From the NCBI GenBank assembly GCA_018701395.1, contig JABIWU010000022.1, forward strand, positions 1 through 39,995: DNA of 39,995 nt, written 5' to 3'. This stretch comes from Phycisphaerae bacterium. Lineage in GTDB: Bacteria > Planctomycetota > Phycisphaerae > Phycisphaerales > SM1A02. A model generated the notes under the pieces. It was given only the letters and a program-made list of their open reading frames with translations. It made no database searches and had not been told where the DNA came from. The stretch's first letter is position 1, and each line of letters begins with the position of its first letter. Both the position numbers and the translations under genes were made by a program. Of the stretch, positions 11,041 through 13,354 are shown piece by piece.

Positions 11041-12228
11041 ATGACAAACAACACCAATCAACCCGTTATAGTTGCAGCCCGCAGAACTCCAGTAGGACGC
11101 TTTTTTGGAGGTCTTTCTCGGGTTCCAGCACCCCAACTCGGTGCATTTGCTATTGAAGCAGTATTAAGTGACTCTGGCATCGACGCCTCAAGCGTTGACG
11201 AGTGCATGATGGGGTGTGTTTTACAGGCGGGCCTTGGTCAAAACCCAGCAAGACAAGCCGCATTAAAAGGCGGTTTGCCCGACACTATTTCTGCCGTGAC
11301 AATTAATAAGGTTTGTGGGAGTGGGCTTCAATCAGTAATGCAAGCGGCGCAATCAATTAAAGCGGGCGACAACAATATTGTTGTTGCGGGCGGTATGGAA
11401 AATATGTCTAGCTCGCCACACCTCGCAAATGTGCGCCCCGGCATTAAATTTGGCGAAGGAACCCTTATTGATCATATGCAACACGATGGCTTAACGTGTC
11501 CATTCGAAGGATGGGGAATGGGGTGCGCTGCAGAATGGACCGCTGGCGAGTATGAAATTTCTAGAGACGAACAAGACGAATTGGCCGCAAACTCACACGC
11601 CCGTGCAGCAAGCGCAACATCTGACGGCTGGTACAAAGAAGAAATAATTCCGCTTGAGGCCAGACAAATTAAACAGCGAGAAGACGTAATAACTGATGAG
11701 GGCGTTCGTGCGGATTCAACAACAGAATCACTAGGAAAACTCCGACCCGCTTTTGCAAAAGAAGGAACAGTTACAGCGGGCAACGCCTCACAAATTTCAG
11801 ACGGCGGCGCCGCCGTCCTTGTTATGTCAAAAGAATCTGCTGAACAGGCGGGCGCGACGGTAATGGCAACGATTGTCGACTACAACACCTTTGGAGTTGA
11901 ACCAAAGAAAATATTTACAGCTCCCGGACTTGGAATAGAACAACTACTCAAACGAAACAATCTAACAGTGCACGACATTGATGTGTTTGAAATTAACGAA
12001 GCGTTCGCTGTACAGGTTTTGCAAAACTTGGCGCATCTTGGAATTAACCAAGACAACGTAAATATTGGTGGTGGCGGGGTGGCAATTGGACACCCAATTG
12101 GGGCTTCGGGAACAAGGGTTTTAGTTTCGTTACTTCACCACCTAAAGCGAACAAATGGTAAGCGTGGAATAATTAGTTTGTGCCTAGGCGGCGGTAACGC
12201 TGTTTCAATGCTCGTTGAACGAGAATAA
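11041..12228 (+). CDS. Acetyl-CoA acetyltransferase / beta-ketothiolase
   Basis: Thiolase of 395 residues that joins two acetyl-CoA or cleaves 3-ketoacyl-CoA. All catalytic elements are visible: the nucleophile C92 in NKVCGSGLQS, INEAFAVQVL, H351 in AIGHPIGASGTR, and C381 in SLCLGGGNA. The length and GHPIGASGTR block match degradative or biosynthetic thiolases (PhaA/AtoB/FadA types), which cannot be separated by eye. The gene stands alone on its strand. It is divergent from fbp, and its stop is 2 nt from the stop of the convergent small basic ORF. Neighbouring acyl-CoA-type genes suggest fatty acid or propionate metabolism. Confidence 0.93.
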   Translation: MTNNTNQPVIVAARRTPVGRFFGGLSRVPAPQLGAFAIEAVLSDSGIDASSVDECMMGCVLQAGLGQNPARQAALKGGLPDTISAVTINKVCGSGLQSVMQAAQSIKAGDNNIVVAGGMENMSSSPHLANVRPGIKFGEGTLIDHMQHDGLTCPFEGWGMGCAAEWTAGEYEISRDEQDELAANSHARAASATSDGWYKEEIIPLEARQIKQREDVITDEGVRADSTTESLGKLRPAFAKEGTVTAGNASQISDGGAAVLVMSKESAEQAGATVMATIVDYNTFGVEPKKIFTAPGLGIEQLLKRNNLTVHDIDVFEINEAFAVQVLQNLAHLGINQDNVNIGGGGVAIGHPIGASGTRVLVSLLHHLKRTNGKRGIISLCLGGGNAVSMLVERE

Positions 12229-12230
12229 AA

Positions 12231-12362
12231 TTAACGAGTGGTATTACTTGGCCGAGTAGCCGGAGTAGTGGTAACGGCAGGCCGGCGAATTTTAACGCTG
12301 GCCCTCGTTGTAATTTTTGGTCGCGTAGTTTGCGACCGCTTTGGTGTGATTGGGCGTTTCAT
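12231..12362 (-). CDS. Small, strongly basic protein of unknown function (43 aa)
   Basis: An unrecognised small gene, read from the sequence. The 43-residue product has 8 Arg, 4 Lys, 11 Thr and 6 Pro and no Asp or Glu, so its net charge is about +12. No fold or hydrophobic segment is visible and it looks disordered. The start is supported by a perfect AAGGAGG about 8-10 nt before the ATG, the best ribosome binding site in the window. The gene lies 17 nt after the cytosine deaminase gene and ends the tolC operon; its stop is 2 nt from the thiolase stop. The composition suggests nucleic-acid or ribosome binding, but that is inference only. It does not match bacterial ribosomal protein bTHX or other tiny ribosomal proteins I know. 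Confidence 0.65.
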   Translation of the reverse strand: MKRPITPKRSQTTRPKITTRASVKIRRPAVTTTPATRPSNTTR

Positions 12363-12370
12363 ATGTACGA

Positions 12371-12378
12371 ACCTCCTT
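12371..12378 (-). promoter_or_regulatory. Consensus ribosome binding site of the small basic ORF
   Basis: On the minus strand this reads AAGGAGGT, a full anti-16S match, 8 nt before the ATG at 12362. It lies in the 17-nt gap after the deaminase stop. Such strong sites are rare in this window, which argues that the small ORF is translated. Confidence 0.8.
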
Positions 12379-12379
12379 A

Positions 12380-12841
12380 CTAATTGCCGATGTCCTCTGC
12401 CCACAAATCGGGCTTCTCGTGACGCATCCTGTTCATTAACGCAATACATCGTGCATCATTTATAACATCAACCTTTACACCATTCGAGCACATTAACGCC
12501 TCAGCACCAAGAAAATTTTTATTTTCTCCGACAATCACTCGTTTTACACCAAATAACAGGGTTGTACCAGCACACATAACACAAGGGCTTAACGTAGAAA
12601 CAAGCGTTAGTTCGTTCCAATCTCTTCTTCTGCCCGCGTTGCGGAAACAAACAACCTCAGCGTGAGCCGTTGGGTCTCCCGACTGTACCCGCTCATTATG
12701 TCCCTTTGATACTATCGTCCCAACACGATCAACCAAGACAGAACCAACCGGAACCCCGCCCTGTGACCACGACAGTTCAGCTTGTTCAATCGCTTCGTCG
12801 AGCCAAATATTCTCTTTCGTTTTACTTCCTTCGCTATTCAC
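12380..12841 (-). CDS. Yeast-type (Fcy1-like) cytosine deaminase
   Basis: Zinc-dependent deaminase of the CDA fold, 153 residues. The zinc site is H60-A-E62 and SPC87-VMC90. Resemblance to fungal cytosine deaminase goes beyond the family signature: GGVPVG near residue 28, KGHNERVQSG, TLSPCVMC, VGENKNF at 104-110 and a C-terminal DLWAEDIGN (145-153). These match Fcy1 segments in the same order and at nearly the same spacing, including the C-terminal Trp and Asp that contact substrate in yeast. It would turn cytosine into uracil, which upp (17168-17818) could salvage to UMP. A guanine or tRNA adenosine deaminase is less likely given the C-terminus. The start is GTG, immediately after the TAA of the lipoprotein gene. 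Confidence 0.82.
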   Translation of the reverse strand: MNSEGSKTKENIWLDEAIEQAELSWSQGGVPVGSVLVDRVGTIVSKGHNERVQSGDPTAHAEVVCFRNAGRRRDWNELTLVSTLSPCVMCAGTTLLFGVKRVIVGENKNFLGAEALMCSNGVKVDVINDARCIALMNRMRHEKPDLWAEDIGN

Positions 12842-13336
12842 TTAAGAAGCGCTCTCATTGCCGCCCGTGGGAAAATTTGGCGATGGCAGTTCGGTAACTG
12901 GAATCATCCAAATCCTTTCTCTTTGAACTGTCCAGGGTTGCGAAAGTGATGACGAAAGGTATATGGTTGCTTGTTCATATTGACCACCAGAAACAGGAAA
13001 AACAATGTCAGCCTCTGCATGGAACGGGCGCTTTCGAAGCTCCGTAACGTGGTAAGCAAGTTGTCCCGAAGTTTCCATTGCAATAGCACCGCCAATTTTC
13101 TCTGAAACAATGGTGTATGTTTCTTTGTTCACGCCTTCGGGCAAATTAAAAACAACGGTGTTCATGCCACCAAAGTGTTCGTGGGCGTATAACAATGTCT
13201 CCGCCAGTATTGTAGGAACGGGCTCATTTGAAGAATTTGAAAACACAAGAGCAACACTGTTTTCTACAGGCGGATATGTTGCAACAGGCGTACACCCAAC
13301 AACAAAGACAATTAAGAGCAAAGCAAATTTATTCAT
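12842..13336 (-). CDS. Hypothetical lipoprotein
   Basis: Not recognised. The 164-residue product begins with a lipoprotein signal peptide ending FVVGC, so C15 would be lipidated and the protein exported. The mature part has two regions resembling soluble alpha/beta segments and ends in a Pro/Gly/Asn-rich tail. The ATG at 13336 is preferred over an in-frame TTG at 13354 because it puts the signal peptide at the N-terminus. It sits between ubiX (18 nt before) and the deaminase (directly after) in the tolC operon. It may be an outer-membrane accessory of the efflux system, but nothing in the sequence proves it. Confidence 0.75.
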   Translation of the reverse strand: MNKFALLLIVFVVGCTPVATYPPVENSVALVFSNSSNEPVPTILAETLLYAHEHFGGMNTVVFNLPEGVNKETYTIVSEKIGGAIAMETSGQLAYHVTELRKRPFHAEADIVFPVSGGQYEQATIYLSSSLSQPWTVQRERIWMIPVTELPSPNFPTGGNESAS

Positions 13337-13354
13337 GTTAAAAGTGTAACACAA

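Follow-up and report, generated by a model that had tools for sequence, protein, structure and literature searches.

A hidden 43-residue basic Arg-Pro microprotein gene conserved across a marine Phycisphaerales genus

Does the short stretch between a cytosine deaminase gene and a convergent thiolase gene of a Phycisphaerae bacterium encode a protein, and, if it does, what could such a protein do? The original prediction, drawn from the letters of a single window (the 39,995 nt of contig JABIWU010000022.1, assembly GCA_018701395.1, that were analysed here), placed a small, strongly basic protein at this site. Upon re-reading the sequence we found both the open reading frame (ORF) and its coordinates to be right: the frame lies on the minus strand, with its ATG at 12362 and its stop ending at 12231, and encodes 43 amino acids. 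Its composition of 12 Lys and Arg, no Asp or Glu, six Pro and 14 Thr or Ser agrees with the predicted 12 basic and no acidic residues in a chain rich in Thr and Pro, and the gaps of 17 nt from the deaminase stop to the ATG and 2 nt from the microprotein stop to the convergent thiolase stop were both measured as predicted. The features of the locus are as follows.

11041 to 12228, plus strand: thiolase (acetyl-CoA acetyltransferase type), the convergent neighbour (Pfam Thiolase_N 1.1e-93, Thiolase_C 1e-41).
12231 to 12362, minus strand: gene for the 43-aa basic Arg-Pro microprotein, product MKRPITPKRSQTTRPKITTRASVKIRRPAVTTTPATRPSNTTR, kept in 13/13 genus genomes, with dN/dS of 0.04-0.10 in close pairs.
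12371 to 12379, minus strand: Shine-Dalgarno sequence of the microprotein, TAAGGAGGT, read directly from the sequence and among the 20 AAGGAGG-N4-9-ATG sites of the genome.
12380 to 12841, minus strand: cytosine deaminase, yeast-type (FCY1-like), the upstream gene (PDB 1uaq, E=1.2e-31, residues 13-152).
12842 to 13354, minus strand: ORF for a putative small lipoprotein that abuts the deaminase gene (sub-threshold Pfam match only).

We compared the locus across 13 genomes of one marine Phycisphaerales (Planctomycetota) genus, all of them metagenome-assembled drafts of roughly 1.6-2.1 Mb. The microprotein ORF is intact in every one of them, at the same site and directly 3′ of the same deaminase, with the thiolase downstream; the stop codons or lost frames in relatives that the original prediction named as evidence against a gene did not appear. 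Eleven orthologues have 43 residues and two (G007 and G010) have 41, all 13 carry 11-13 Lys and Arg and at most one acidic residue, and acidic residues are absent altogether in ten, such that length and charge, together with the Shine-Dalgarno sequence in most species, are conserved as a genuine gene had been predicted to show. Twelve positions are invariant (M1, K2, R3, P4, K8, Q11, R14, P15, R27, P28, R37 and P38), and these include four Arg-Pro pairs, one of them within the opening MKRP, spaced 11, 13 and 10 residues apart. The further claim that the ORF fills the available space exactly holds in some species and fails in others: the spacer to the thiolase varies from 2 to 119 nt, and the ORF stays at 43 codons.

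The pattern of substitution is that of a protein-coding gene. Differences at codon positions 1, 2 and 3 number 851, 571 and 1316, respectively, so that the third position varies most, and of the six frames only that of the microprotein lacks stops throughout the 11 sequences compared; its pN/pS, 0.39, is also the lowest. The dN/dS comparison that had been proposed as a check gave 0.097 (G000/G009), 0.070 (G003/G008) and 0.044 (G007/G010), along with 0.076, 0.100 and 0.059 among G001, G004 and G011; Fisher tests on the microprotein pairs returned p values of 1.5e-4 to 3.6e-11. The deaminase has similar values in the same six pairs (0.06-0.11). Two pairs tested within the group of G002, G006 and G012 gave 0.32 and 0.36, which points to looser constraint there; some of the dS values are close to saturation. 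Because length is kept despite the variable spacer, codon positions are biased and dN/dS is low, this is no chance ORF; the microprotein ORF is a genuine gene under protein-level purifying selection.

If the stretch did not encode a protein, it might hold a frame open by chance, an RNA element or a terminator lying between the convergent genes. Such a reading could appeal to the shortness of the intergenic stretch, to one terminator-like match (plus strand, 12318-12338) and to RNA folding in G000 slightly above that of shuffled sequences (z -1.6). The number of terminator-like sites is at chance level, however, Rfam has no match at the microprotein locus, and a protein is indicated by dN/dS, by the bias across codon positions and by a length that hardly changes among the 13 species. 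We rejected the RNA-element reading because the G000 hairpin is absent from the other sequences and its folding score is only slightly beyond the shuffles. The dN/dS result refutes a chance ORF or an RNA-only element in practice, and non-protein explanations as a whole appear exceedingly improbable.

Where translation begins bears on the identity of the product. The longest ORF in this frame has 72 aa and starts with an ATG at 12449, so the warning that automatic annotation might choose a longer, wrong start is plausible for a caller that takes the longest ORF; the extension itself is not conserved, and we rejected it because G005 and G011 have no open frame upstream of MKRP. In these two genomes the frame opens at the Met of MKRP, and a GGAGG or AAGGAG core precedes this codon in 9/13 species, which makes the 43-aa start the correct one. 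In G007 and G010 the microprotein ATG instead overlaps the deaminase stop by 4 nt (ATGA), and G005 and G012 have weak purine stretches only. Counting the nine Shine-Dalgarno cores and the two ATGA overlaps, we regard the translation start signal as conserved. Together with the conservation of frame, length, charge and Shine-Dalgarno sequence and with dN/dS, this lends strong support to the prediction of a hidden small protein-coding gene, and translation of the microprotein is strongly supported by the sequence comparison.

The strength of this signal is itself unusual, as Planctomycetes have a Shine-Dalgarno sequence at only a small fraction of their genes (PMC5397173). The description of the site as the best ribosome binding site of the window was borne out by a mechanical scan of the 37 window ORFs that reach 100 aa, none of whose starts exceeded five contiguous Shine-Dalgarno matches; AAGGAGG occurs at two more sites in the window, neither of which precedes a listed start. 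Across the 1.94-Mb genome, whose Shine-Dalgarno sites are otherwise weak, AAGGAGG-N4-9-ATG occurs 20 times (some of these sites are probably not gene starts) compared with once for a reversed-pattern control. Reading by eye the sequences behind this rare signal, we take the other genes to include those for bL20, an H1-like KKAT-repeat protein, a LemA-like, a GcvH-like and a citrate-synthase-like protein, and this company suggests that the microprotein is highly expressed. The KKATRKKAT-repeat protein (L142:1501-1763, contig C28 of the same genome) runs off the contig end and has the AAGGAGG-ATG signal in front of it.

How far the family extends was assessed with a search profile built from the 13 genus sequences, which matched 13/13 genus genomes at about E 1e-15 or better. 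Among 168 other genomes of the family a single match fell below 1e-3 (G137, E 1.2e-4, residues 12-39); it lies inside a 35-codon stretch that has no ATG and overlaps longer open frames. This match and three further weak ones in the order were rejected as chance-looking arginine-rich stretches over larger open frames, distinct from small ORFs of the MKRP type. No credible homologue outside the genus was found in the 168 family genomes, the rest of the 400 order genomes or the rest of the 392 phylum genomes, sets that overlap one another. None of the 13 members matched Pfam or NCBIfam at E 1, a PDB profile search with the microprotein returned nothing up to E 10, and phage records held no match to it; PHROGs gave a single chance-level match, to a family with no assigned function (E 0.17). 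In the deaminase tree a branch with 100/99 support separates the 13 genus members from the other sequences. Beyond the genus this deaminase, mostly 58-70% identical within the family, had no microprotein behind it wherever checked. G016, which belongs to a different genus of the family, has the deaminase and thiolase converging across a short gap that is empty of any such ORF. The microprotein is most likely restricted to this genus, and the simplest reading of these comparisons is an origin of the gene at the base of the genus. Loss elsewhere, or divergence of a short and biased sequence beyond detection, are possible alternatives.

These observations also bear on whether the microprotein could be a small partner or regulator of the upstream deaminase, translated together with it. 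The gene lies directly 3′ of the deaminase throughout the genus, in two cases with the ATGA overlap, and dN/dS is similar for both genes. The entire neighbourhood, thiolase included, is nevertheless syntenic in 13/13 genomes, for which reason adjacency to the deaminase carries no independent weight; the same deaminase does without the microprotein outside the genus, and yeast cytosine deaminase is not known to require such a subunit. We consider this partnership improbable.

The deaminase itself has a Pfam dCMP_cyt_deam_1 match and reaches TadA at only about 2e-15, as against 1.2e-31 for 1uaq. In a genome contig scan, Elusimicrobia MAGs at 67-69% identity make up most of its best matches after its own genus, and it may have been acquired by horizontal transfer. 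A protein whose N-terminus resembles that of the putative lipoprotein stands beside the deaminase in G019, and the pairing of lipoprotein and deaminase therefore looks older than the microprotein. Two further observations concern deaminase loci elsewhere: in G023 (L019) repeated copies of GTGCCACGGCCTTCCAGGCCGTG lie downstream of the deaminase, and contig C5 of G027 (58525-71429) holds several full and partial cytosine deaminase matches within about 13 kb.

As to function, the composition of the microprotein fits the original suggestion of a nucleic acid or ribosome binder, and the protein probably binds RNA or DNA, with RNA or the ribosome as the first preference and DNA as the second. All 13 sequences are polycationic, and AlphaFold predicted no secondary structure, at low confidence (mean pLDDT 66, pTM 0.14); for 43 residues and 13 sequences, this is weak evidence. 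One explanation, which we favour tentatively, is that this genus-restricted protein would stay unfolded in solution and act as an extended clamp. Its four invariant Arg-Pro pairs and 11-13 positive charges would hold nucleic acid at several points, with structured RNA or the surface of the ribosome as the most likely target, and its role would be that of an accessory factor outside the core. Mean pairwise identity is 57% for the microprotein and 78% for the deaminase, and this faster drift points to an accessory factor and not a core ribosomal protein. This interpretation must be made cautiously, however; the same drift, and the higher dN/dS in the group of G002, G006 and G012, also count against the clamp, no homologue has a known function, and the composition would also fit a protein that binds DNA, membranes, polyphosphate or an acidic partner protein. 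A more specific version is in our estimate unlikely: an accessory peptide of the ribosome, or one that binds RNA, would have arisen in this lineage alone, at the base of a streamlined marine genus, become fixed and, by means of its four Arg-Pro clamps, been integrated into translation or nucleoid function. If the microprotein does bind the ribosome or nucleoid, core machinery would have gained a young component specific to this lineage, with an origin datable to the genus base.

Known systems offer partial parallels to the accessory clamp that we favour. The small basic 30S protein bTHX (Thx, PF17070) is likewise very short and very basic and provides a model for a peptide that lines rRNA. We rejected bTHX as the identity of the microprotein because the Thx profile matched in 0/13 genus genomes at E 0.1, in a search that was positive in Thermus. 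Replacement of a lost ribosomal protein was considered for bS21 and bL36; each was found in 12/13 genus genomes, with the misses in different drafts, and we therefore rejected the idea that the microprotein replaces either.

AT-hook and SPKK minor-groove peptides, like the microprotein, combine Arg-Pro pairs with a basic chain that does not fold, and on this model the microprotein would be a nucleoid or DNA-binding peptide, a minimal analogue of an H1 tail that enters the minor groove through its T/S-P-K-R and Arg-Pro elements. Each of the eleven 43-aa orthologues has T/S/A-P-K-K/R at residues 6-9, an element reminiscent of the SPKK motif in histone tails; the protein is very basic, mostly devoid of acidic residues, and the genome encodes the H1-like KKAT-repeat protein behind the same strong Shine-Dalgarno sequence. 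In contrast to these peptides, none of the 13 sequences contains GRP, part of the R-G-R-P AT-hook core, and the TPKR element is not invariant, being absent from both 41-aa orthologues, which retain the RP pairs. A DNA-binding role is thus conceivable, though we think it rather unlikely.

The proline-rich antimicrobial peptides (PrAMPs) drosocin, apidaecin and oncocin resemble the microprotein in their Arg-Pro pairs and in being cationic and extended, so that a proline-arginine peptide seated in the ribosome exit tunnel, or a secreted antimicrobial like the animal PrAMPs, might be envisaged for this strongly cationic, unfolded chain. Bacteriocin-like genes are usually patchy in distribution, and this gene is retained by the whole genus; it has no evident signal peptide or other sign of secretion, and inspection revealed no adjacent immunity or export gene. 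The Pro-Arg-Pro motif of PrAMPs (PMC11678341) is moreover present in 0/13 orthologues, and we regard such a role as very unlikely.

A further likeness is to the genus-restricted families of the GMSC catalogue, which are shorter than 100 aa, unannotated and confined to one genus; more than half of its small-protein families with at least three members are genus-specific (PMC11364881). Unlike those families, the microprotein had its orthology, synteny, start and dN/dS checked individually across 13 genomes, and it is a clear example of the small functional genes that standard annotation tends to miss: all 13 species retain it, and its full Shine-Dalgarno signal is among the few in a lineage mostly without them. 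Genus-restricted small proteins are common; what distinguishes this one is demonstrable selection combined with a rare, strong translation signal.
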